Shown here in pieces: positions 1-14,780 of a stretch of 56,972 bases of DNA. Below the pieces are notes generated by a model. It saw only the letters and a list, made by a program, of their open reading frames with translations, was not told the DNA's origin and searched no databases. The stretch is from Candidatus Woesearchaeota archaeon. GTDB lineage: Archaea; Nanobdellota; Nanobdellia; Woesearchaeales; GW2011-AR4. The stretch is taken from positions 1 through 56,972 of the forward strand of contig JACOUX010000041.1 in the NCBI GenBank assembly GCA_016177615.1, read 5' to 3'. The translations under genes and the position numbers were made by a program. Numbering within the stretch: the first letter of the stretch is position 1; every line of letters begins with the position of its first letter.

Positions 1-1
1 A

Positions 2-2356
2 TGGTTCTGCAATAATGACGGAACAGTCAGCTCTTTGCAAATATCTTGCGATAGCGGAAAGTTGTGCTCGAATGGGGCGTGCGTTTCTTCACCACAGCCA
101 ACAGGCTCTTGCGGAAATGGCCAGCTTGAAACTAATCTAGGAGAAGAATGCGACGGAACAAATCTTGGCGGAAGGACTTGCAGCCAGGACGGATACACAG
201 GCGGATCATACAGGTGCACGGGATGCTCACTTGATGCGAGCGGATGCACAAAAGTACCCATCAAATATGACACCTGCAGCAACATTCTCTTTAGCGGAAT
301 AATAGGGCCTGCTATAAGTGCAGGAGGAACGTGCACTGTTTATTCAAGGCTTCAATGCACTGAAAATCAAGCTGACAAGCATTGTGATAGTAAAGGAAAC
401 TCATGTCCGAGTTTGGCGGACTGCCCCCGTTTGCATTGCAGCCAACCAAGCTCGCCAAGCTATTGGATAAACAGCGATCCAAGATGCGGAACAAACCCAA
501 GGGGAAATGAGGCATATACTGCCTACACATGCACGTACCCATGCGTCATCAATGATTTTGGCGGCGGAAGCGATTTTGCATTCGACAAAAGCCAAACCCC
601 TTATGTCATGAACCCAGACAGGCCTTTCAGGCCAACCCGGAAAGTGACAACAGGCCCGCCTTATATAATCAGCGATTCCTTGGCATTAACTGCAGGATAT
701 GCGAGGTACAGCGGAAGAATAGTCGACGAGTCGGGAACGCCGGTGGCCGGCGCAAAAGTCTATGACAACGACAAATCGCCAGCGCCTTTTGACCGTGAAA
801 GCCAGATATGGGAACTTACCGTCTTCCCGACAGATCCAAAATACGTGCAGTCAAGCTGCAGCCAGGTGAATGGGGCACTTTATTACTGCATGAGAAGCGT
901 GAACAAGCCCACTCTATGCTCAACAAATGCCCAGTGCAACCAGTATTCGGTCCAGTCAAGCGCAACAACTGCAAGCTGTAGCTGCCAGGCAGCCCCTGCT
1001 CCCTACAATACAATCTGGAATTCGAACGCATGCCAAGGAATATTCTCCTTAGGCAAGGAGCCTGCTGCATCCCATTTCTGCTGGACCCAGATTGTTTCGT
1101 TCACCGGAAATCCAAAAGGCAGGCTGCTCGTCGGGCAGACAGACGCGAACGGCGACATAGTCTTCGACGAGGCGTTCATTGCATACTTGTCAACGAAGCG
1201 CGCCGAGGAAGCCAAACTGGAAGTCGGTGAAGGAGGCAAAAGCGCATCCGTTGGCTTGAAGTGGGGAACAGACTCTAAATGGGACATCAGAATAGTGAAA
1301 GGGACGAAGAGTGTCGTGAAGACACTGGATTCCCAAGGAACAGGCAATTTCAATATCAATGCAAAATGTAATTTCGATGCGGGCACTTGCACAGGCGCTT
1401 CGCTTAGCGGCGGGGGAGGAGGTGGCGGAGGAGGATCAGGCGGCGGAAGCTGCGGCTCTGTAAACCAGCCTTGTTGCGCCGGAAACATTTGTAACAGCGG
1501 GCCATGCGCAGGAAATGTATGCCAAAACATTGGGACTTCATGCGCTTCACAGGCTGATGTCGGAAAAACAAGATGCAACAGCGCTAATACAGGAATTGAA
1601 AGATGCGGTCCAATAGGAAGAGGATTTGGATGGGATCTTCAAGGAACATACTGCACCAGCCCGCAAAAATGCATATACAACAGCAACGGGCCGGTATGCG
1701 GAACTATCAGCAATCCGGGTGCAGAGGGAATAGGTCCTGGAAGCATTAAGGGATGCTGCGGATTTGAGCCACAAGTTTGGGATATGACAGGTGTTTCAGA
1801 GCTTAAAGTCAAGATTAAAGGAGACAAAATTGGAACCGGAATGTCGATTTATTTAGGTCATGCAGGATCGTTTGAAATAACACCATTAAGCTCAACAGAA
1901 GGCGAATTTACAATTACCCGTGATAACTTAGGAGGATATGGCAGCTCATATTCAGGTGCAGGATATGTGGATGCTCCTGATGGAACTACCGATTTTATTT
2001 TCTTTTCAATCCAGCTTGGTGGCAGCAATGAGCCTGTGTGCACATGCCATGACATACCTGCCAATACATATCAAAACCAGCCAACTGCGTGTCGCCAATG
2101 CTCTTATCTTGATCCAAATATAGGAGCTTATGCCACCTGCGGAACTCGTGAGCAAAATACATGCCCAATTGATGCAAACTACAGGGGTGGTGGCGGAACT
2201 GAAAATAGTCTTGGCCCGTGTGTATGCAGGGCTGGATCAGGATGCCAGCAGCAAACAGGGCCCCCTATTGGCCAGGTGGGCCCAGCCACATTTGGACCAT
2301 GCGAATGCCCAACCCCTAATCCAGTTCCTGATGCAGATCACACCTGGGAATGTTAA
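2..2356 (+). CDS. Secreted cysteine-rich multidomain surface protein (5' end outside window)
   Basis: The frame is open from base 2, and the first in-window start-like codon (TTG at 35) falls inside an already cysteine-rich stretch, so the true start and any signal peptide lie upstream; 784 residues are visible. In order: a Cys-rich block with CGNGQLE and GEECDGTN (about residues 37-80), a carboxypeptidase-regulatory-like segment (YSGRIVDESGTPVAGAKVYD, about 235-257), the block GRLLVGQTDANGDIVFD, a poly-glycine linker (about 470-483), another Cys-rich stretch, and an IPT/TIG-like beta domain (about 580-680). The same blocks recur in the protein at 5595-9983, so the two are paralogues. Role inferred: disulfide-rich cell-surface or adhesion protein. 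No enzyme motif is visible. It leads three co-directional secreted-protein genes. Confidence 0.8.
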   Translation, partial: WFCNNDGTVSSLQISCDSGKLCSNGACVSSPQPTGSCGNGQLETNLGEECDGTNLGGRTCSQDGYTGGSYRCTGCSLDASGCTKVPIKYDTCSNILFSGIIGPAISAGGTCTVYSRLQCTENQADKHCDSKGNSCPSLADCPRLHCSQPSSPSYWINSDPRCGTNPRGNEAYTAYTCTYPCVINDFGGGSDFAFDKSQTPYVMNPDRPFRPTRKVTTGPPYIISDSLALTAGYARYSGRIVDESGTPVAGAKVYDNDKSPAPFDRESQIWELTVFPTDPKYVQSSCSQVNGALYYCMRSVNKPTLCSTNAQCNQYSVQSSATTASCSCQAAPAPYNTIWNSNACQGIFSLGKEPAASHFCWTQIVSFTGNPKGRLLVGQTDANGDIVFDEAFIAYLSTKRAEEAKLEVGEGGKSASVGLKWGTDSKWDIRIVKGTKSVVKTLDSQGTGNFNINAKCNFDAGTCTGASLSGGGGGGGGGSGGGSCGSVNQPCCAGNICNSGPCAGNVCQNIGTSCASQADVGKTRCNSANTGIERCGPIGRGFGWDLQGTYCTSPQKCIYNSNGPVCGTISNPGAEGIGPGSIKGCCGFEPQVWDMTGVSELKVKIKGDKIGTGMSIYLGHAGSFEITPLSSTEGEFTITRDNLGGYGSSYSGAGYVDAPDGTTDFIFFSIQLGGSNEPVCTCHDIPANTYQNQPTACRQCSYLDPNIGAYATCGTREQNTCPIDANYRGGGGTENSLGPCVCRAGSGCQQQTGPPIGQVGPATFGPCECPTPNPVPDADHTWEC
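1411..1449 (+). repeat. Poly-glycine coding tract
   Basis: A run of GGN codons inside the first surface-protein gene encodes an almost pure glycine linker with one or two serines, separating the regulatory-like domain from the distal Cys-rich part. Such low-complexity tracts can vary in length between strains. A similar but shorter Gly/Ser tract occurs at about 8325-8365 in the paralogous gene. Confidence 0.7.
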
Positions 2357-2403
2357 TTTTTTAATTTATTTATTTTAGAAATTCAAAAAGCCCAAAAATC
2401 AAA

Positions 2404-3582
2404 ATGCGAAACACAAAAAAACTTTTATCATTGCTTATAACTAGCTGGATTTACATCTTTTTATTTCCATTAAGCACACTCTCACAAGACTGCTCACGAC
2501 AGGGGCTTGAAATAAGTACAGGTGATCTGCCCACTGCATTTATCGGTAAATCCTATTCAGCAATTGTATCGGCGCAAGGCGGCAAGCCAAGCTACCAGTG
2601 GGAAGTTTCAGGATTGCCTCCGGGGTTAAGGCCGGTTTCGCGAGGATGCAGCAAAGGAACAAATGTGTACCATCCCCGGGTTTATATTGAAGGAACACCA
2701 ACAGCTGCCGGAACTTATCAAGTTACAATCACGGTCGATGACGGCTCTGACAGCGATTCAGGCACTTACACTCTTAACGTGCAGCAGGACACCACCCCTC
2801 TGCTGAGAGTCCTGTATCCGAACGGAAGGGAAACGCTTGAAACAGGGAAAACATACGAGCTAAGGTGGAATTTTAATTATCCAAACTCTGAAGAAACATC
2901 TGCAACCTCGATATCGCTTGAGCAGGCGCAGGGGACCCAGTATCAGGAAAAGGTGAGGATTTCCAATAATGCAGAGACTAAAGTTGGCAATAACAGGCTG
3001 TTGTGGACAGTTCCTACAGGGTATGAAGGAAATAATTATCGCGTCAAGGTTTGGCTGGATAAGCTGTTTCAGCTGCCTTCAGGCGCAAGCATAAGCCCAA
3101 GCGATGTTTCAGACCTTGATTTCAGCATAATACCTGATGACGGGTTCAATGAGCAGCCCACGATAACAGGATTGCCTGACATTCCTTCAAATGCCAAAAC
3201 AGGGCAATCAGTTTCATTTTCATGGAGCGCAGTTGACTCTGATAATGATGACTTATACTGGAAAATTGACTGGGGCGACGGCACTAAGTTCGAGGAAACC
3301 TGCCCTTCATCACAAAATTCAGCTAAAAGAGGCTGGTCAGTAACAAAAAGCCATTCATGGCAGGCAGCAGGCCCATATAACATAAGGGCAAGCATTACAG
3401 ACTGCAAAGGAGGAACTGATGCAGAAGAATTAAGGATAACCATTGGGTTATCAATACCGGGACTGCCGCCTGGCCCAGGAGATCCTGGAGATATCCCGCC
3501 GCCTGATGATGATAACAGTGGTGCATTGCCAGGAGCGCCAGGGTTGCCAGGTGCACCGCCGGAGAATGGGAACCTTGAATAA
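2404..3582 (+). CDS. Secreted Ig-like/PKD-domain protein
   Basis: 392 residues. The N-terminus is basic followed by a hydrophobic core (LLSLLITSWIYIFLFPLS) and a small-residue site near STLSQ, a typical Sec signal peptide. A He_PIG-type putative Ig domain follows (about 35-130; GGKPSYQWEVSGLPPGL), then a region resembling Kre9/Knh1-type beta domains (about 135-245; PNGRETLETGKTYELRW), then a PKD-like domain (about 250-350; WGDGTKFEE) and a Pro/Gly-rich tail. There is no C-terminal membrane anchor. It starts 47 bases after the preceding gene; the gap is T-rich and may hold a weak terminator or promoter. It probably joins its neighbours in one surface-protein locus. Ligand unknown. Confidence 0.75.
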   Translation: MRNTKKLLSLLITSWIYIFLFPLSTLSQDCSRQGLEISTGDLPTAFIGKSYSAIVSAQGGKPSYQWEVSGLPPGLRPVSRGCSKGTNVYHPRVYIEGTPTAAGTYQVTITVDDGSDSDSGTYTLNVQQDTTPLLRVLYPNGRETLETGKTYELRWNFNYPNSEETSATSISLEQAQGTQYQEKVRISNNAETKVGNNRLLWTVPTGYEGNNYRVKVWLDKLFQLPSGASISPSDVSDLDFSIIPDDGFNEQPTITGLPDIPSNAKTGQSVSFSWSAVDSDNDDLYWKIDWGDGTKFEETCPSSQNSAKRGWSVTKSHSWQAAGPYNIRASITDCKGGTDAEELRITIGLSIPGLPPGPGDPGDIPPPDDDNSGALPGAPGLPGAPPENGNLE

Positions 3583-3618
3583 TCAAACTAAAAAAAACTC
3601 AAAAACAATAATCGTCAA

Positions 3619-5586
3619 ATGAAAAAACACATGCGTCATCAAACAAGAGGCGGATTTTTTCTAGCCGTAGTTATAGCTACACTCATGCTTGCGGCTGTTA
3701 ATGCTGCAGGCTCCTCCGGTGATTTTGCGCCTCCGGATAACATTTTCAGGAACAATGAGTGGTCGGTAGCAGTCAGGGTTGGGACAGGCTCGCAATCAAG
3801 CACCTCAATGACTGCTCATGCCAGAAATGACATAATTTACAGGAATTTTTACATATGGCTCAACAACAGATGGCAGCAATTTTCATTTTCACAAACTACT
3901 TTAGATGGTGCCTGGATAGAGAACACTGCCTCAAAGGATATAACTGTGCAGACAGCCCAGCTAAAAGACGGGACAAATTATATGATTGCATACACATGCG
4001 CATTAGTTAATGATGTATGGAAATGCGGCTGCAAGTCTCAAAATGACTGCGGATATTGGCAATTGAGGCCTTTTACTGTAAACAAAGGAACAACTAGCGA
4101 CCTTAGAATAACTACAACATCTTTGCCAACTGCCACTGCAGGCCAGCAGTATTCTGCAAACCTACAGGCAGCTGGCGGAGCCTCTCCTTACAGATGGTAT
4201 GTCTCCAGCGGAAATCTGCCATCAGGGCTTAGCCTTGACGGAAATCTGGGGAGAATCTATGGAACTCCGATTGGCTCTTCAACACAGTTGAACATAATCA
4301 CAAATTCGCTGCCAAACGCAGTTGCAGGCCAGCAGTATTCTGCAGACATTCAGGCAAGCGGAGGACAGGCTCCACATACCTGGGAAATAATAAGCGGAAG
4401 CTTGCCTCCGGGTTTGGCTTTAAGCAGCCAGGGCATGCTGTCAGGGACAGCCGGAACAGGCGGGCCTGGCTGTGCTCAATTAAACAGCAACTCCCCAGGC
4501 AACTGCTGCTCAGGGCAAAGGTGCAGCAACGGCTATTGCAGGACAACCTGCCCAACTACACAAACAGGAACTTGCAGTTTTGGACCGGGAACAGGGCCGT
4601 TTGAATTCACGGGCATGGCTCCGGATATTTTTGACTTAAGAGGAGGAGTCACAAGCCAAAAATACCAGATAACCGGAACAGGCTTCGGTTGCGGAATGAC
4701 GGCACGCGTCGGACTGACATATGCCCCCATCACTGCTACAAGCCTTACTGAAGGATATTTCACCCTAACTGACGAGGACATGAGAGGAAATTTAAAACAC
4801 TATGCAACGCAACGCATTTACCCGGACAGCCAAGGAAGGTTTGTCCTTGAAGGCAACTTGATAAGAAGCGACGATGGTCAAAGCGACTTTTATTATGTTA
4901 CTCTATTGACTGAGCCAGGGCCGGGAAGCGGAACATGCCCAAACAGAGACAGCAACATATGCCCGCAGACGTGCAGCAGGGTTGAATGGTACAATATCGG
5001 AGGCACGTGGACAAGCACATATCCGCCGTGCGGTGCCTCTAATGTTTGCGCGACAAGAACGATATGCGGCGTGCCCAATACATGCTTCAGGGGCGGCGGG
5101 TATCAGGTGTTCCAGTGGTATGACTCGCGGTACGAGGTCAGGTGCACGCTGAAGGACGGCTGCGCGGGTTCCTTGTCATGCGACGGCGTGTGCACGAAGA
5201 AAGATCCCAGCTGCGGTGCAGGCCCTGATGAAAGCACGTGCAAAGACAAGGAAGGAGAGCCGTGCGCAGAGGGCGGAGATTTCCAGTGTGTGGGCTCGAA
5301 GAAATGTGACAACAACGGCAACCTGTTCTGTGACATAGGTACTTGCAACCCTAGCGATATTAACAGCTGCACTCCCGGACTGGAAAGAGGATGTGAAACA
5401 GAGCTGCAAGATGCAAACGACAATGATGTCCCGTCATTGCGATACAGATGCATAGGAAGAAAAATATGCCCCAGCAGCGGATCATGGGCTGGTGCCGAAT
5501 GCGAGATGTGGTCTTCCACCTGCGCAGAACCGCTCAAGAGATACTGCTCTGATGGCGGAGCTGACACCAGATTCGCGGCTTGTTGA
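3619..5586 (+). CDS. Secreted protein with two Ig-like repeats and cysteine-rich tail
   Basis: 655 residues. A signal peptide is visible (GGFFLAVVIATLMLAAVNAA). Two consecutive He_PIG-like repeats occupy about residues 170-285; both carry a version of SLP.A.AGQQYSA.(L/I)QA.GG, so they are internal duplicates. A compact Cys cluster follows (NCCSGQRCSNGYC), then an IPT/TIG-like domain (about 330-440; KYQITGTGFGCGM ... TEGYFTLTDEDMRG) matching related domains in the proteins at 2-2356 and 5595-9983, then a Cys-rich tail. It begins 36 bases after the previous stop and ends 8 bases before the next ATG, so co-transcription is likely. No catalytic motif is seen; a structural or adhesive surface role is inferred. 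Confidence 0.75.
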   Translation: MKKHMRHQTRGGFFLAVVIATLMLAAVNAAGSSGDFAPPDNIFRNNEWSVAVRVGTGSQSSTSMTAHARNDIIYRNFYIWLNNRWQQFSFSQTTLDGAWIENTASKDITVQTAQLKDGTNYMIAYTCALVNDVWKCGCKSQNDCGYWQLRPFTVNKGTTSDLRITTTSLPTATAGQQYSANLQAAGGASPYRWYVSSGNLPSGLSLDGNLGRIYGTPIGSSTQLNIITNSLPNAVAGQQYSADIQASGGQAPHTWEIISGSLPPGLALSSQGMLSGTAGTGGPGCAQLNSNSPGNCCSGQRCSNGYCRTTCPTTQTGTCSFGPGTGPFEFTGMAPDIFDLRGGVTSQKYQITGTGFGCGMTARVGLTYAPITATSLTEGYFTLTDEDMRGNLKHYATQRIYPDSQGRFVLEGNLIRSDDGQSDFYYVTLLTEPGPGSGTCPNRDSNICPQTCSRVEWYNIGGTWTSTYPPCGASNVCATRTICGVPNTCFRGGGYQVFQWYDSRYEVRCTLKDGCAGSLSCDGVCTKKDPSCGAGPDESTCKDKEGEPCAEGGDFQCVGSKKCDNNGNLFCDIGTCNPSDINSCTPGLERGCETELQDANDNDVPSLRYRCIGRKICPSSGSWAGAECEMWSSTCAEPLKRYCSDGGADTRFAAC

Positions 5587-5594
5587 GATTAAAA

Positions 5595-8500
5595 ATGGCT
5601 CAAATTAAGAAAAAAGGATTAATAGGAATTTGGATGGTAACATTGATTGTATTAATCTTAATGCCAGAAGTCTTATCCCAGTCTTCCCAAAGCTTTAGCA
5701 TAACAGTTGTTGATAGCAAAGGCAATGCTGCGACAAAAGAATTTGTGATGGCGTTAAGCCGGGGAAATGCTGACCAAGAGGGGCAACCAAGATACGTATC
5801 TTTAGGCCAGGAATTCGGACTGCTCAAAGGAAAGTCTGTAATAGTAAGAGACAACAATATGGGCATTGGCTTGGTGGACATAAGAAGATCATTCATTTTC
5901 TTTGGAAAGTTTAAGTACGATGTTGTTGTTGAATACGGTAATGAGGAAGCAGAAATAACATTCACAACATCTGATAACACATGGACTGGATTTGGCGTAA
6001 CTATTAAAATGATTGAAGGCAACACAGAAAGCGCCCAATTTGTTGTGAATCGGATAGGAGGAGCTGCTCAGTGCACTGATAGTGATGGTGGTATTGTGTA
6101 TAGTGCTCAGGGAACAACATGCGGTTCAACCTTATCTGGACAGCAATGCGGCACAGACCTATGCCAAAATCCAAACACAAATTCTATATGTGAAGGGAAA
6201 GTTAACTGTTTATTAAAAGAGCACTCTTGCAGCGGCAATAATTTGGTAACTCAAACCTATAACTGCCCAAATGGCTGCAGAAATGGGGCTTGCATTTCCG
6301 CCACTGCTTGCGCTGAAGATGCAAAGCAATGCCCTGATGGAAGATATGTCAGCAGGGTACCTCCAAATTGCGATTTTCCAGCTTGTTCTAATACACCATC
6401 AAGTTCTTGCGGCAATGGGCAGCTTGAGAGAAATTTAGGAGAAGAATGTGATGGAACAAACATTGGTGGCAGAACTTGTGCTCAGGATGGATATACTGGA
6501 GGAACATATTCCTGCACAGGCTGCAGCCTTGATGCGGGCACGTGCCTGCAAAATACTGCAATGGATAAATGTTACACACTAGTGCCTGACAACAACCGCG
6601 ATCAGGCAACAGCTGCATGGAGCAAGTGCGAAAACAATTGTTTTCTTATGTGCCTGGCTTATCCAAACATAGACCATGCTGTTACAGCGAACGGCAGAAA
6701 TTACAACTGCAGGGAAAAAATAAAAGCTTATGACCAGTGCGTGGCAGACTGTCCTAACAAACCAGCCAATCTTCATAACCGTGATCATCTCGGAAATGAC
6801 ATCGGATTAAATCAAGAACTGGAATTGCAGTGTAGATACCATTTCTTTGACTCAAGCAGCAGTGCAAGCACCGCAACAAATTTCCCATTCATCAAAGCAG
6901 AAACCCTGCATGCCCTGAACCCAGACAGGCCATTCAGGCCGGCAAGGGACATGGAAATCAAGCCTGTTTCCAGCCTTGTGAGAGAGAGCGGAAGCACGCT
7001 GGTATTCTACGGCAGAGTTTTGGATGGTGCCGGAAGGCCGATAGCAGGCGCTAAAGTGTATGATAATCAGAAATCCCCTGTGCCGGTAGATAGGGAATCC
7101 AGGCTTGCAGGAGGAGGGACAATAAAAATAAACTTCTGCACCAGCAACAGCCAGTGCCCTTCGGATTGCAAATGCGGATCAAAAGAGCTGCCTTACCCGT
7201 TTAATCGAGACGACACCAGGCTTAACATCTGCCTGAAAGCGGACTTTTCAAAGTGCGACAGCAAAGGAGTTGATCCGAATGCTGCCGACCTGTTTGCAGG
7301 AGACCCGACAGGCAAGCTTCTGGTCGGCCAGACAAACGCAAACGGAGAGATAGTGTTTGATCAGGCATTTGTCGCTTATCTCTCAAGGACCTACCGCTCC
7401 GGCAATTATGCCCCCGGGAAGATTACGATTTCAAACAGCGGCAGAAAAATATTCATCAACACCGACATTGTCCTAAATCCGGGCAGCAACTGGGTAATCA
7501 CCAACATCGCCATCAACCTAAATGCGGGCAACTGGGAAGTAAGAATCGTAAAAGGGACAAAGAGCGTAGTGAAGACATTAAACCCGCGAAGGGCGCAGAG
7601 TTATGGAAGTGGAGGCACTGCAGACATCAATTATATTATTGATGCTAAATGCAATTTTGATAGTGGGACATGCAATCTCGCGGGCGAAGGAAGCGATGGC
7701 ACAGGAGGTTCAGGAGATGCTTGTGATCCATCCAAATGGCCAAGGGGTGAGCTAGCAGGCCGCGCCGAGCCTGGTGTGATTTATGCAGGCGGTCATGACC
7801 AGACATATCATTTGACCGGCCAAAATTTCAGGCCAGGAATGAAGTGGTTTTTGATGGGCGCAGGAAACTCCTTTAATTTGGACATGATTGTCATTAGCCC
7901 GACAGAAGCTTATGCTGTAATAAGGGGGGAACAGATCGCATTTTTGCCAGCGGTTCTGGAAGAGCTTAAAGCGGCGAATAACGGAAATATCCCAGAAGAT
8001 TTCGGATTTAATGGACATTTTTCCATAGAAAATGGCGACGGCAGCGTAACCTATTCAGATTTTGTGGGTCTAAAAGTGGTGGAAGGAGAGGGACAGAGTT
8101 CATATTCTCCGCCTCCTGAACCGACGTGCCCTAACGGGCAGGCAGCTACATGCGCTTCACAGGCTGACGTTGACACGAAAAAAAAGAGATGCAACTTCCA
8201 GATTAACGCAATTGAGCAATGCACTAAAGCAGGCGCGGGATTTGCATGGGACCAGATACAGTTCTGTACTGGTGGCAGCAGCACTTCAAGCGGAGGAGGC
8301 GGCACTGGAAATTGGATTTGGATTAATGTAGGCGGCGGGGGAAGCAGCTCATCAAGCTCAAGCTCGGATGGCGGTCATTGTACAGAGACAGCAAATGGGC
8401 CAGCATGCGTTGCAGGAAGCGCTGACATGTGCGATGCACAAAGTGTCGGAAACAAAAGATGCGGCGACAATGCAGTTGATGAATGCGTTAAAGACGGAAA

Positions 8501-9983
8501 CAATTATCTGTGGAAGCCCGTTGAAACTTGCTCTAAAGATTGTTCTTTAACAGCAGATGGTGCAAAATGCGATACTTCAGGCGTTGGAGGATATAGTTTT
8601 TGCGCAGGTCAGCTGGACTGCCCGGCTGGCACCTGCGTAAACCATCTTTGCATAGAAGGAACAACGTTTGATTGCTCGCTGCTTCCAAATATTGGAAGAG
8701 GTGTAGTAATGCAGGATGGACTTCCCGTTCCAGGCGATTACATTGATTGCACTTGTACTGAAGCACAATATAGCACTTGTCATGAATTTAAATGCAATTC
8801 TAAAACAACTGGAGATCCTCTTGTTAATGCTGTATGCGATGCTGGCGGAAAACCAAGCGGCGGTTCTCCCGGACCAACAGGAAAGCCCATAGGCGCTGAT
8901 TGTACTGGAAACTTCCAATGCACTCACGGATATTGCGAAAAATCATATGACTCAACAACAGGCAAGGTAGAACTGTGTAGGCAAGGAGATTCTGGATGTA
9001 AGTGCGGCACAGGCCCTTGTGTTGGCGGAACATGTGTGACTGGTCAAAGCTGTGATTCATCACATAGATGCGGAGGGGTAGAAAGCGGCAAACCATGCGG
9101 TACACAAGGGGAATTAAGTTGCAAAAGTGGCATCTGCAGGGGGGGCATATGTGTTGAGCCTCCTGGCGCAACATGTAGCAATTCCAATCAGTGTGCTAGT
9201 AATACCTGCAATCAGGGTAAATGTGGAAACATGCCACAAGGGCAATCTGTAAATGACGAATGCAATCCCGGACAGCAGGCAGGATGTTCTAAAGGAAGAT
9301 GCCCGGGCTTAAAATCTTGCAGTGTAGTGAATGGAAGAGGTGTATGGAGCAGCGCATGTGGACAATACGATCTTTATTGCGATCCTGCTACCGGGAATAG
9401 TAGGTATGACCCAAAAACATGCAACAAACAGTGTTCAGGTTGCACCCCAACTCAAGTTTGTGATGAGTGCACAGGAGGGTGTGTTGATGCAAGCGCTCTG
9501 CTTGGCAATTCAAATCCAAATGTAAATAATTATAATCAATGCAGAGCCACGCATGACCCACTTTATTGTCTGGGACGTTCAGCCGGATGTTATCCAGGCG
9601 ATCCTTGCTGGGATACAGCTACTAACAAACCAAAAATAGGCGCTACTAGGCCTTGCTCTATAACAAATTCTAAGGGAAAGATATGTACAGGGACACAAGC
9701 TGTTGTTGATGACGCCGGTCATTTTGGAGCGTGCAATGCTGTTTGCCCTGGTGAGAGCGGCGGAATTGAAGGCGGCGCTATTTGCGGCGATGGGCAGTGC
9801 AACAACGGCGAGGACTGTAACTCCTGCTCGGGCGATTGCGGAACATGCGGAGCTTGCATACCGGACGGAAAAACATATGTCCAGGGATGCTTAGGATACG
9901 CTTCATGTCCCGGCAAACAGGAATGCGACTCCTGCGGAAACTGCAATGACTGCGCGGAATACGACCCGAACTGCGGGAAATGA
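5595..9983 (+). CDS. Giant secreted cysteine-rich surface protein
   Basis: 1462 residues counted from the ATG at 5595; the TTG at 5580 adds only five residues ahead of a good signal peptide (KKKGLIGIWMVTLIVLILM), so the ATG is preferred. It repeats the layout of the first protein in the window: CGNGQLERNLGEECDGTN block (about 275-320), NPDRPFRPARD, a regulatory-like segment with GRPIAGAKVYDN (about 480-500), GKLLVGQTNANGEIVFD, VRIVKGTKSVVKTL, AKCNFDSGTC, an IPT/TIG-like domain (about 720-830) and a very long Cys-rich tail (about 840-1460) with CxxC-rich modules and a Gly/Ser tract. Many disulfides imply an extracellular location. Likely a rigid stalk or adhesin; function otherwise unknown. 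It is the last gene of the surface-protein run. Confidence 0.8.
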   Translation: MAQIKKKGLIGIWMVTLIVLILMPEVLSQSSQSFSITVVDSKGNAATKEFVMALSRGNADQEGQPRYVSLGQEFGLLKGKSVIVRDNNMGIGLVDIRRSFIFFGKFKYDVVVEYGNEEAEITFTTSDNTWTGFGVTIKMIEGNTESAQFVVNRIGGAAQCTDSDGGIVYSAQGTTCGSTLSGQQCGTDLCQNPNTNSICEGKVNCLLKEHSCSGNNLVTQTYNCPNGCRNGACISATACAEDAKQCPDGRYVSRVPPNCDFPACSNTPSSSCGNGQLERNLGEECDGTNIGGRTCAQDGYTGGTYSCTGCSLDAGTCLQNTAMDKCYTLVPDNNRDQATAAWSKCENNCFLMCLAYPNIDHAVTANGRNYNCREKIKAYDQCVADCPNKPANLHNRDHLGNDIGLNQELELQCRYHFFDSSSSASTATNFPFIKAETLHALNPDRPFRPARDMEIKPVSSLVRESGSTLVFYGRVLDGAGRPIAGAKVYDNQKSPVPVDRESRLAGGGTIKINFCTSNSQCPSDCKCGSKELPYPFNRDDTRLNICLKADFSKCDSKGVDPNAADLFAGDPTGKLLVGQTNANGEIVFDQAFVAYLSRTYRSGNYAPGKITISNSGRKIFINTDIVLNPGSNWVITNIAINLNAGNWEVRIVKGTKSVVKTLNPRRAQSYGSGGTADINYIIDAKCNFDSGTCNLAGEGSDGTGGSGDACDPSKWPRGELAGRAEPGVIYAGGHDQTYHLTGQNFRPGMKWFLMGAGNSFNLDMIVISPTEAYAVIRGEQIAFLPAVLEELKAANNGNIPEDFGFNGHFSIENGDGSVTYSDFVGLKVVEGEGQSSYSPPPEPTCPNGQAATCASQADVDTKKKRCNFQINAIEQCTKAGAGFAWDQIQFCTGGSSTSSGGGGTGNWIWINVGGGGSSSSSSSSDGGHCTETANGPACVAGSADMCDAQSVGNKRCGDNAVDECVKDGNNYLWKPVETCSKDCSLTADGAKCDTSGVGGYSFCAGQLDCPAGTCVNHLCIEGTTFDCSLLPNIGRGVVMQDGLPVPGDYIDCTCTEAQYSTCHEFKCNSKTTGDPLVNAVCDAGGKPSGGSPGPTGKPIGADCTGNFQCTHGYCEKSYDSTTGKVELCRQGDSGCKCGTGPCVGGTCVTGQSCDSSHRCGGVESGKPCGTQGELSCKSGICRGGICVEPPGATCSNSNQCASNTCNQGKCGNMPQGQSVNDECNPGQQAGCSKGRCPGLKSCSVVNGRGVWSSACGQYDLYCDPATGNSRYDPKTCNKQCSGCTPTQVCDECTGGCVDASALLGNSNPNVNNYNQCRATHDPLYCLGRSAGCYPGDPCWDTATNKPKIGATRPCSITNSKGKICTGTQAVVDDAGHFGACNAVCPGESGGIEGGAICGDGQCNNGEDCNSCSGDCGTCGACIPDGKTYVQGCLGYASCPGKQECDSCGNCNDCAEYDPNCGK

Positions 9984-10073: not shown

Positions 10074-10109
10074 TAAAAAACCCAATCGCAGCAAGCTGCG
10101 GGTTTTTTT
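10074..10109 (+). terminator. Hairpin with T-run, putative terminator of the surface-protein run
   Basis: AAAAAACCC (10075-10083) pairs with GGGTTTTTT (from 10100). The interior is a second hairpin with GCAGC and GCTGC arms around AA (10088-10099), and the right arm ends in seven Ts. The shape fits transcript termination about 90 bases after the stop of the large surface-protein gene. The inner core is shared with the nested palindromes at 10112-10166 and 55931-55981. Confidence 0.5.
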
Positions 10110-11401: not shown

Positions 11402-12100
11402 ATGAGCCAAATAGCCAAATTAACAGAGGATTATGGGAATAAAAAAGAAAAAATAAGGGAAAGATTGAGCCAGTTTGAAAAATTCTTCAATGAGCCATGC
11501 TCGTGGCATTATATAAACGGAGAGCTTAAGCTTTTGCCTTCTGAAAAGGATGACAATCAGAGGCTCTTTGAGGAGCTTTCCTTTTGCATTTTTACAGCCA
11601 ATACAAGCGCAGAAATGGGATTAAAGGCGGTTGATGCTGTGAGAGGTGTTTTAATAAGCGGAAACGCCAATGATATGACAAGAAGGCTGGAGGGGATTTA
11701 TAGATTCAACAATCTGAGGCCTGAGTTTATTGTGCATACCAGGAATTATTTAAAGAATACATTGAATTTTGAATTGAAAGGGAAAATAAAGTCCTTCAAG
11801 GATAGGAATGAACTGCGGGATTTTTTTGCGCTTAATAAGGGTATAAAAGGGCTGGCATACAAGGAAGCCTCACACTTTCTCAGGAATATAGGATTCAAGG
11901 GCTATGCAATACTTGACAAGCACATAATAAATTCGCTGCATGAATTCGGAGTTTTAAATTCAAATACGAAGCCGAAGAATCCAAGGGAATATTTTGAGAT
12001 GGAGCAGAAGTTCATTGAATTCTCAAAAGATGTTGGAATTGACATGGATGAACTGGATTTGCTCTTATGGAGCAGGAAAAGCGGAAGGATTTTGAAATAA
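11402..12100 (+). CDS. Archaeal 8-oxoguanine DNA glycosylase/AP lyase (Ogg2 type)
   Basis: 232 residues, close to the usual Ogg2 length of about 210-230. Base-excision repair: removes 8-oxoguanine and cleaves the AP site. The helix-hairpin-helix region holds the putative catalytic lysine (K154 in GLAYKEASHF) and, 18 residues later, the aspartate (D172 in YAILDKHI); the same spacing is seen in the Methanocaldococcus jannaschii Ogg2 pair. The C-terminus ends LWSRKSGRILK, fitting the C-terminal lysine important for base recognition in this subfamily. A good leaderless promoter precedes it. The endonuclease III gene lies 480 bases downstream on the same strand. Confidence 0.85.
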   Translation: MSQIAKLTEDYGNKKEKIRERLSQFEKFFNEPCSWHYINGELKLLPSEKDDNQRLFEELSFCIFTANTSAEMGLKAVDAVRGVLISGNANDMTRRLEGIYRFNNLRPEFIVHTRNYLKNTLNFELKGKIKSFKDRNELRDFFALNKGIKGLAYKEASHFLRNIGFKGYAILDKHIINSLHEFGVLNSNTKPKNPREYFEMEQKFIEFSKDVGIDMDELDLLLWSRKSGRILK

Positions 12101-12103
12101 AAA

Positions 12104-12538
12104 ATGAAGCCAAACCCCAAAGTTCAAAGATTATACGAACTCCATACCAAACATCTTGACAGGGATGCGCGGCATTTGGGAGATGCGGAAAACCTGCAGG
12201 AATTGATAGAATATACTGAGCGAAATAAGCCGGCTGCGTATATGCTTGCAAAGTGCTGTACTGACGGAACCCCAACACTTCAATTAGCTTATAGGCCTGC
12301 AACTGCTGGTAGCAAAATTACCGTTAGGAGGGTTCGGCTAGGAATGCTCTCAGATCAGGAAAGGCTTAAATTAGTGCAAATCTTGGAAAGAGAAAGTGTC
12401 CCCTTCAGGCAAACCTCTTACCTATCATTAAATTCTGATTTTACTGAAACTGAAAGTTGTAGGAAGCAGGAAAGGCTAAGCTTATATTATCAAGTCGCAA
12501 TGAAGATCTTGGAATTATGGAATAGGGCGGCACATTAA
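12104..12538 (+). CDS. Hypothetical protein between two DNA-repair genes
   Basis: 144 residues, starting 3 bases after the Ogg2 stop, so probably co-transcribed. Soluble, basic, mixed alpha/beta; contains AKCCTDG and a C-terminal helix (YYQVAMKILELWNRAA). No known domain is recognised, and no zinc motif or catalytic signature is seen. Its place between Ogg2 and Nth is suggestive only. Confidence 0.6.
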   Translation: MKPNPKVQRLYELHTKHLDRDARHLGDAENLQELIEYTERNKPAAYMLAKCCTDGTPTLQLAYRPATAGSKITVRRVRLGMLSDQERLKLVQILERESVPFRQTSYLSLNSDFTETESCRKQERLSLYYQVAMKILELWNRAAH

Positions 12539-12580
12539 AAATACATACTGCATCAAAATTTCAAATATCAGAAAATTGGC

Positions 12581-13243
12581 ATGGCAGATATAAAAAACAT
12601 AGGCAAAATAATAAGCCTTCTTCGGAAAGAGGTAAAAGATTTTGAAAACCCGGTAGTTTCCAAAATTGGAGAGATACAACAAGATCCTTTTAAGGTTTTA
12701 ATTTCATGCATTCTAAGCTTGCGCACGCAGGATAGGACAACTGGCCCGGTTGCCTTGAGGCTTTTTGAAGCCGCTGGCACGCCGCAAAAACTGGCAAAAA
12801 TGTCTTTAGGCAAAATACAAAGAATAATTCGCCCAGTTAATTACTACATAACAAAATCCAAGCGAATAAAAGGCATTGCAAAAACAATAATAAGGGATTA
12901 CGATGGCAAAGTGCCTGATAATTTTGATGAGTTAATGAAGCTGAAAGGCGTCGGCAAAAAGACAGCCGCAATTACCATGGTCTATGGTCACGGTAAGGCA
13001 GATTATATACCAGTAGATATCCATGTTTTTGTAATATCAAATCGCTTGGGATGGGTCAAAACAAAAAACGCAGATCAAACAATGGACGAGCTGATGAAGA
13101 TTGTTCCAAAAAAATATTGGAGTGATTTAAATGATTTATTTGTTCTTCATGGCCAAAATGTCTGCCTGACTAATTCCCCTTTCTGCTCGAGATGCGCTGT
13201 AAATGGCTGCTGCCCGAAAATCGGAATCGTAAGAAGCCGCTAA
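12581..13243 (+). CDS. nth: Endonuclease III (DNA glycosylase/AP lyase)
   Basis: 220 residues, full length. Removes oxidised pyrimidines and nicks the AP site. The HhH motif LKGVGKKTAA carries the catalytic lysine (K127), with the paired aspartate 18 residues on (D145 in PVDIHVF), the same spacing as K120/D138 of E. coli Nth. A C-terminal Cys-X6-Cys-X2-Cys-X5-Cys pattern (CLTNSPFC through NGCC) gives the [4Fe-4S] cluster. All key residues are present, so the enzyme should be active. It is 42 bases after the hypothetical gene and 37 bases before pepA. Confidence 0.93.
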   Translation: MADIKNIGKIISLLRKEVKDFENPVVSKIGEIQQDPFKVLISCILSLRTQDRTTGPVALRLFEAAGTPQKLAKMSLGKIQRIIRPVNYYITKSKRIKGIAKTIIRDYDGKVPDNFDELMKLKGVGKKTAAITMVYGHGKADYIPVDIHVFVISNRLGWVKTKNADQTMDELMKIVPKKYWSDLNDLFVLHGQNVCLTNSPFCSRCAVNGCCPKIGIVRSR

Positions 13244-13280
13244 CAAAAGATTAATAAACAGCTTAAAGATTTCCCTTACA

Positions 13281-14780
13281 ATGGAAAATCAATCTGTTTC
13301 TGTCAGGTCAATGAAATGCAGCCTTGATAAGGTAAAAGACAATGCATTGCTAATCGGGTTCATTAAGGAAAAGACAGGATTAAGCGGAGAGCTCAAAAAA
13401 TTTGATGCTGAGCATGGCAATATCGTCAGCTCTTTCATAAGGGACAACAGTTTCAAGGCGGAGAAAGGCGACGTGAAAAGCATTTACATTAATAAAAGCC
13501 TGAAAAACATCGTACTTGTCGGCCTTGGGGAACAGGATAAGTTCAGCATCAGCGTAATGCAGAATGCAGTCGCTGATGCCTGCAAAAAGCTGAGAAATGG
13601 AGTGGAGTCGTTAAGCATTTTATTGGGCTCTTTTTCCGGAGGGGTGCTGGATGAGAAGGAGCTGGCTGAAAAAGCTTCCCTAGGATGCCTGATGGGGCTG
13701 TACAAATTCACTGAATTCAAGACCAAGGACAAGGACAAAATAAAAAGCATCAGGCAAATAACGCTAATAACTGATTCCGGCCATAATCTTGAAAAAGAGA
13801 CAGAATATGCCGCTATTGTCGCTGAAGCAGTTAACAAAACAAGGGATTTTGTCAATACACCCCCAAATGTTGCAACTCCAGAGCATATTGCGGATTATGC
13901 AAAAAATATAGGCAAAAATTTTGGTATCAAAGCCAAAATTTTTGATGAAAATGGGATTGCAAAAATGAAGATGGGCTGTTTTTTGGGAGTTGCCCGGGGC
14001 AGCGTGAATAAGCCAAGGCTTGTTGTTCTGGAATATAATGGCGCAGCAAAAAGCAAAAAGCCGATTGTGATTGTCGGCAAGGGAGTAACATTTGACAGCG
14101 GCGGGCTTAACGTCAAGCCATATCCTTACATCCTTAATATGAAGGATGACAAAGGAGGCGCCTTGGCAGCAATCCATACCATTGAGGCGTGCGCAAAGCT
14201 CAGGATGCCTGTAAATTTGGTTGTTATTGCTCCATTCTGCGAGAACATGATTGATGCTGCTTCTTACAGGCCGGATGATGTCCTGACTGCGTACAACGGA
14301 ATGACTGTTGAGATTAAAAATACGGATGCAGAAGGCAGGCTGATTTTGGCTGATGCATTGGCTTACGCTGCTGAGCTGAAGCCTGAAGTGATTATTGACA
14401 TTGCCACATTGACAGGCGCAAGCATGGTAACACTTGGGTATGTTGCAACACCTTTCCTTGCGACAGATGAAAAATTAAGCGAAAAAATAAAAAGCGCTTC
14501 CAAAAAAAGCCTTGAGAAAGTCTGGGAGCTGCCTCTTTGGCCGGAATTTGAGGAAAGCATAAAGAGCGATGTAGCCGATATTAAGAACATAAGCGAAGAA
14601 GGAGATGCAGGAGTGATAATAGGGGCGACGTTTCTGAAAAATTTTGTGGGTGAAGTTCCGTGGGCGCACATTGACATAGGGACAACAGTCTGGTCAAAAG
14701 TTGACAAGGGAATTCTTACAAAAGGAGGCACAGGGGCTACTGTAAGGCTGATGATGGAATTGCTGAGGGAGTGGAAGTGA
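13281..14780 (+). CDS. pepA: Cytosol (leucyl) aminopeptidase, M17 family
   Basis: 499 residues, typical for the family. Cytosolic di-zinc/manganese aminopeptidase acting in peptide turnover. The N-terminal macro-like regulatory domain (about 1-165) is followed by the catalytic domain with GKGVTFDSGGLNVKP (catalytic lysine and metal-binding Asp) and the family signature NTDAEGRLILADAL (about 346-359; metal-binding Asp/Glu and catalytic Arg). All signatures are intact. A start at ATG 13281 fits the domain boundary. Confidence 0.95.
   Translation: MENQSVSVRSMKCSLDKVKDNALLIGFIKEKTGLSGELKKFDAEHGNIVSSFIRDNSFKAEKGDVKSIYINKSLKNIVLVGLGEQDKFSISVMQNAVADACKKLRNGVESLSILLGSFSGGVLDEKELAEKASLGCLMGLYKFTEFKTKDKDKIKSIRQITLITDSGHNLEKETEYAAIVAEAVNKTRDFVNTPPNVATPEHIADYAKNIGKNFGIKAKIFDENGIAKMKMGCFLGVARGSVNKPRLVVLEYNGAAKSKKPIVIVGKGVTFDSGGLNVKPYPYILNMKDDKGGALAAIHTIEACAKLRMPVNLVVIAPFCENMIDAASYRPDDVLTAYNGMTVEIKNTDAEGRLILADALAYAAELKPEVIIDIATLTGASMVTLGYVATPFLATDEKLSEKIKSASKKSLEKVWELPLWPEFEESIKSDVADIKNISEEGDAGVIIGATFLKNFVGEVPWAHIDIGTTVWSKVDKGILTKGGTGATVRLMMELLREWK

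Follow-up and report, generated by a model that had tools for sequence, protein, structure and literature searches.

A block-built woesearchaeote operon whose exported proteins lack N-glycosylation sequons

Four exported proteins encoded side by side in a 'Candidatus Woesearchaeota' genome contain not a single N-glycosylation sequon (N-x-S/T, x not Pro) in 4,403 residues, where whole-protein shuffling leads one to expect 50.6. When residues are shuffled within 50 residues the expectation is 48.6, and the lowest count among 5,000 shuffles is 24. The genes form a real, block-built and mostly disulfide-rich surface operon, and its richness in cysteine is ordinary for the phylum; what surprises is that its sequons are completely lost in a cell that has other surface proteins enriched in them. 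The explanation we favour, and to which we give about an even chance, is that the four Sec-exported proteins would make up one disulfide-locked, glycan-free extracellular assembly, derived from duplicated and reshuffled blocks together with Ig-like and TIG-like domains.

The stretch of DNA analysed, hereafter the window, is contig C31 (56,972 nucleotides) of a 1.54-Mb genome that is in 67 contigs and 99.08% complete. The four open reading frames, all on the plus strand, lie at 2–2356, 2404–3582, 3619–5586 and 5595–9983, and the first runs off the contig edge with an open 5′ end. Window positions 1–141 match the end of contig C46 exactly (G000:C46:17006–17146) with the frame kept, and because assembly graphs that break at the k-mer size typically leave an exact overlap of this kind (141 bases) between contig ends, C46 very likely adjoins C31; the join is based on this contig overlap and not on a read. 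Joined across it, gene 1 encodes 1,894 aa, of which the window holds the C-terminal 784, and hence gene 1, not gene 4 (1,462 aa from its ATG, with an alternative TTG start possible 5 codons upstream), is the longest of the four. The likely end of the operon is a stem followed by a T run (10086–10101, plus strand; consensus scan), a weak terminator-like signal of a kind that shuffles give equally often. Farther downstream are two HhH-type DNA glycosylases (Ogg-HhH and HhH-GPD; 11402–12100 and 12581–13243). The methionyl-tRNA synthetase is closest to those of 'Candidatus Woesearchaeota' genomes (up to 81% identity), many of them from groundwater, which bears out the small archaeon presumed in a sequence-only reading of this DNA. 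The four operon genes have a higher overall GC, but their third-position GC (0.41–0.50) is inside the range of the other genes examined (0.30–0.52), and composition therefore lends no support to an origin as recently transferred foreign DNA. On C46 the operon is flanked by a gene pair (12072–12743, plus; 12733–13566, minus) with orthologues that are 65–69% identical and, in the sister species G003 and G011, separated by a single gene; the operon is not present in the stretches examined of these two species (80 kb each).

Genes 1 and 4 are joined by one long collinear alignment of 490 columns (E 7e-64 without SEG, 1.6e-57 with SEG) and by a separate match of the CASQADV block (E 1.6e-5). At least six collinear blocks had been claimed for this pair, and at least seven exact ones are found in the same order, starting at the following window positions in gene 1 and gene 4, respectively: CGNGQLE..GEECDGTN (110 and 6408), NPDRPFRP (611 and 6918), AGAKVYDN (746 and 7044), LLVGQT (1124 and 7317), RIVKGTKSVVKTL (1289 and 7542), AKCNFD (1361 and 7644) and CASQADV (1541 and 8151). 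Each pair of proteins was then compared by Smith-Waterman score with 100 shuffles in which every Cys was kept fixed and the other residues were shuffled locally. The observed score is reached by none of the 100 shuffles for gene pairs 1–4, 1–3 and 2–3, the last two of which have further domains in common, and by 24 (genes 3–4), 3 (genes 1–2) and 42 (genes 2–4) for the others, a relation between which appears weaker or not supported. The objection set beforehand, that the blocks are generic low-complexity matches, thus fails for the first three pairs, and low complexity is likewise ruled out by shuffled controls of the block models.

The block models resolve the mosaic further. The CDG-type Cys repeat (47 residues) has two copies in gene 1, one of them at 110–247 (68.3 bits in the genome search), and one in gene 4 (6408–6545). 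A long module found only in these two genes, at 551–1453 in gene 1 and 6855–7724 in gene 4 with 45% identity, includes a CarboxypepD_reg-like (transthyretin-like) segment; this name depends on Pfam matches below threshold (14.1 bits against a cut-off of 32.3; E 0.061 and 0.043), given that the structure model of the module failed (pLDDT 33.3). Weak matches to the long-module model were ignored, since one shuffle reached 15.6 bits. Four clear copies of the CASQ block occur in the operon, two in gene 1 (one on C46, one at 1541–1654 with 64.0 bits against 6.5 for the best shuffle) and two in gene 4 (8151–8267 and 8430–8531), and a CCSG knot is common to genes 1 and 3. Exported gene 2 (392 aa, 2404–3582) combines a He_PIG Ig-like domain (E 1.2e-7) with PKD (E 2.8e-8), and exported gene 3 (655 aa) has two He_PIG domains (E 3.7e-15) besides its CCSG block; in these two genes the Pfam cut-offs are passed by He_PIG with 32.5 and 56.6 bits (cut-off 24) and by PKD with 34.1 bits (cut-off 23.5). 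For gene 4, nothing rises above cut-off in Pfam, NCBIfam or a PDB sequence search, and of 24 pattern matches obtained in a search of genome contigs for named relatives, none proved to be a relative.

An IPT/TIG-like domain had been claimed for three of the proteins. It is supported for genes 1 (1760–2044) and 3 (4612–4929), which have it in common with E 5e-6, and only weakly for gene 4, in which the stretch from 7767 scores only 3.6 bits by a model of the other two (best shuffle 3.9). Pfam gave no TIG match in the operon proteins, and the structure model of the gene 1 domain (pLDDT 64.3) has no Foldseek match at E ≤0.001. VIA-align places two phage neck proteins first (Z 8.0 and 7.8), followed by plexin, EBF, TonEBP, NFATc4 and Met domains, several labelled IPT/TIG (Z 5.7–7.7); ties of such size are common, and the IPT/TIG name suggested by the model is therefore plausible, not proven. 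If the gene 4 domain is real, the order of blocks has changed by shuffling, because in gene 1 the second CASQ block comes before the TIG-like domain, and in gene 4 both CASQ blocks come after the putative domain. Together with the module private to genes 1 and 4 and the multiple copies of CASQ and CDG, this supports the proposed origin by duplication and shuffling. Among 371 genomes of the phylum, the long module occurs in the source genome alone and the CDG repeat in 131, also elsewhere in the source genome as part of a 2,676-aa frame on C21 and a 3,664-aa frame on C27. Hence proteins in this Cys-rich style are common across the phylum, and the operon is a private assembly of the style; the earlier view that very high Cys content is unusual for a small archaeon is not supported as such.

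Cys makes up 7.1, 1.0, 5.8 and 7.7% of genes 1–4, so that the description as disulfide-rich proteins applies to genes 1, 3 and 4 but not to gene 2. Past residue 30 the Cys counts are even in the three rich proteins (134, 38 and 112) and 3 in gene 2. A surface disulfide-forming system, predicted from the Cys content, is supported by VKOR, which is found in 18 of the 20 genomes of the genus, among them the source genome, where it has its CxxC. No clear DsbA-type partner was found in the source genome, where the Thioredoxin_4 match is without CxxC; a ResA-like lipoprotein has one. All four proteins have one N-terminal signal-type segment, in line with the proposed surface location, and no other strongly hydrophobic segment, and no anchor segment was found in any of them.

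The absence of sequons is specific. The window part alone has 0 against 32.4 expected (lowest shuffle 17), and gene 2 alone, too short for significance, has 0 against 3.7. Among 230 residue pairs at sequon spacing with an expectation of at least 8, the most depleted are N.T (0 against 24.9) and N.S (2 against 28.0), and both remaining N.S cases are N-P-S. The reversed motif is at chance (51), as is N-x-C (21 against 19.9), and neither D-x-S/T nor Q-x-S/T is depleted. In archaeal oligosaccharyltransferases, Pro is strictly barred from the middle place of the sequon, as set out in an excerpt of PMC8342417. The depletion follows the oligosaccharyltransferase rule. With sequons below chance and Pro-containing and reversed motifs at chance, the operon proteins appear to be under selection against N-glycosylation. 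The enzyme itself is encoded on contig C24 (L271:14759–17860, minus strand) as an AglB/STT3 protein of 1,034 aa with 12 TM segments, WWDFG and a PF02516 match of 122.3 bits; it has a long N-terminal cytosolic extension, and its region is rich in glycosyltransferases.

Elsewhere in the exported proteome of this cell, sequons go either way. In 684 kb of the source genome, 340 soluble ORFs hold 546 sequons against 580.7 expected. Among the 18 exported-like ORFs with an expectation of at least 3.5, the four operon entries included, sequon counts have a dispersion index of 21.2, and those of the reversed motif one of 0.35; 'exported' follows a simple hydrophobicity rule here, and each ORF was taken to begin at the first ATG that follows a stop codon, with incomplete ones included where marked. 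Source-genome stretches were taken by contig number and not by sequon content, except for C46, C27 and C21 (earlier search matches) and three stretches chosen to look for AglB. Enriched are L228 (133 against 55.5), L224 (103 against 39.4) and L258 (44 against 14.9), whereas an exported giant of 3,661–3,664 aa on C27 (L043:3722–14704, minus strand; 2.7% Cys) has 1 against 35.3, at residue 3658 of 3664 and thus near the C-terminus. This purged surface protein outside the window also holds beta-helix, DUF4215 and CDG repeats. The Cys-rich giant on C21 is partly depleted (17 against 32.2), a beta-propeller lipoprotein has 0 against 3.7, which is not significant alone, and the remaining exported-like ORFs are intermediate. 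Zero sequons in the operon, an encoded AglB/STT3 and sequon-enriched surface proteins in the same cell together mark the operon as a set purged of N-glycosylation sites. Both classes recur in the sister species, from which some stretches were chosen for earlier matches and the rest arbitrarily: a 1,964-aa protein of G011 has 5 against 23.5 and an 848-aa protein of G003 has 38 against 13.8. The L258 family, a CARDB-type exported protein kept in three species (L258, G011 L283 and G003 L290), is enriched 2–3 fold in each (44 against 14.9, 25 against 11.8 and 39 against 12.5), and is a candidate N-glycosylated core surface protein.

N-glycans might disturb oxidative folding, in which case any Cys-rich exported protein would lose its sequons and the purge would be a by-product of disulfide-rich folding without any special assembly. 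Genes 1, 3 and 4, with 5.8–7.7% Cys and zero sequons, fit this idea, as does a Cys-rich protein of 612 aa in G003 (1 against 7.3), but in other exported proteins rich in Cys, sequons are retained or even gained. The 22 CDG-repeat loci of relatives hold 312 against 222.8 in sum, one such locus with 9.4% Cys has 44 against 13.0, and the C21 giant of the same cell retains its 17. Conversely, there are purged proteins that are poor in Cys, including the C27 giant and one in G289 (0.9% Cys; 1 against 10.5), and among the exported proteins examined the sequon ratio tends to be without relation to Cys content. We therefore regard a by-product of Cys-richness as disfavoured and very unlikely. Equally improbable to us is that the proteins are secreted parts of a cellulosome-like or other enzyme scaffold, with the gene 1 dockerins docking a set for polymer breakdown. 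The C46 part of gene 1 has a signal peptide, a TIG-like stretch and a dockerin type I match (PF00404, E 9.9e-24, 83.7 bits against a cut-off of 22.9) with four D-x-N-x-D-G-x-V-N-x-x-D Ca2+-type loops, hence two tandem dockerins, and every dockerin match of the source genome falls in this gene. Across the 371 phylum genomes, dockerin is found in 85 and cohesin in 21, of which 13 have both (Fisher p 9e-5). However, no enzyme domain was found in the four proteins, and PF00963 (cohesin) has no match in the source genome at E 0.001, although the dockerins may have a diverged cohesin there or a partner in another organism. In G011, two adjacent exported Big_7 proteins at L286 (G011:C8:10001–24340), with 2 against 12.5 and 0 against 8.2 sequons, lie close to the only cohesin match of that genome and are a possible second purged set linked to cohesin. 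Taken together, the relatives' 38 loci with dockerin or cohesin are neutral (197 against 202.0), and neither Cys-rich nor dockerin proteins are purged in general. The relatives' sample, in which 6 of 48 are depleted and 8 of 48 enriched, is biased, as G093, G289, G178, G235 and G052 were chosen partly for extreme counts.

An adhesin family under diversifying selection, in which shuffling of blocks would vary the binding to hosts and sequons would be missing as a side effect or as an aid to binding, is a better competitor, though we still think it rather unlikely. It would account for the changed order of the shared blocks, for an operon private to the source species and for its position beside a gene pair conserved in two sister species without the operon there; in addition, Ig-like/PKD proteins have been proposed as host-contact proteins in nanohaloarchaea (excerpt of PMC10266531). 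Against it, no close orthologue or strain of the operon was found by which selection could be gauged, and the 45% identity of the gene 1 and gene 4 modules is equally expected from an old duplication. Under the reading of a glycan-free assembly, the operon would have arisen as disulfide-locked blocks and Ig-like/TIG-like domains were duplicated and put into new orders, AglB would be active on exported chains, and a glycan anywhere on the four proteins would be harmful, presumably because their surfaces are used along the whole length for packing or binding. The four proteins would act together outside the cell, with the gene 1 dockerin linking parts or a partner via Ca2+, and they would likely form a fibre, a sheath or a contact patch free of glycans, which would probably serve for attachment to a partner cell or surface. 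Linkage through Ca2+ and the dockerin and attachment to partner cells seem the likeliest uses, and putative host adhesion by the operon proteins is plausible.

The sequon signal would also show that an archaeon can select against N-glycans along entire proteins; in the literature we met such selection only for eukaryotes. A wider and more tentative idea, which we would put on the unlikely side, is that the exported proteins of Woesearchaeota fall into two evolutionary classes recognisable from sequence, one glycan-coated with sequons enriched 2–3 fold and one glycan-free with nearly none, and that the glycan-free class touches partner cells directly or builds contact organelles. We infer a link between purge and contact function rather than observe it, given that the C21 giant is only partly depleted and dockerin and cohesin loci are neutral. 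Uncultivated DPANN archaea have very large surface proteins, most of them without a name, which makes those for host contact hard to single out, and a composition-controlled sequon signal splits exported proteins from sequence alone; if the idea is true, exported operons free of sequons would mark, in the genomes of uncultivated symbiotic archaea, the machinery by which these make contact. The prediction is no N-glycan on the operon proteins and many on the sequon-rich ones. In the literature on dockerins of DPANN archaea, on surface proteins rich in Cys and on the avoidance of sequons we found no account of the pattern, although it may have appeared in print earlier.

Several known systems resemble parts of the operon. 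The giant Ig-like/PKD/LamG proteins of nanohaloarchaea (DPANN) are likewise large, exported, multidomain, with Ig-like and PKD domains, and grouped in operons, and a role in host contact has been proposed for giant surface proteins of cultivated nanohaloarchaea, those with PKD and LamG among them (excerpt of PMC10266531); the operon differs by its disulfide-rich blocks, dockerins and zero sequons, and no anchor segment was found in it. The CGDG..EECD Cys pattern is that of DUF4215-type repeats (PF13948), and the C27 giant carries both kinds, but the gene 1 and gene 4 repeat is a form of 44–47 residues that Pfam does not report in these genes. Gene 1 passes the Pfam dockerin cut-off as do archaeal dockerin/cohesin pairs, both families of which are present in the phylum, but it was found with neither cohesin nor enzyme. 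Selection against sequons has reportedly been described for eukaryotic secretory proteins by Bushkin et al. (2010). An excerpt of PMC5562741 describes for eukaryotes how sequons disappear from buried sites and interfaces, with exceptions where Pro stands at +1 or the site is near the C-terminus. The likeness is that N-x-S/T is lost where a glycan would hurt and the exceptions are the same, and by this analogy proteins purged along their whole length would be dominated by interfaces; here, however, the purge covers whole exported proteins of an archaeon whose other exported proteins include sequon-enriched ones.
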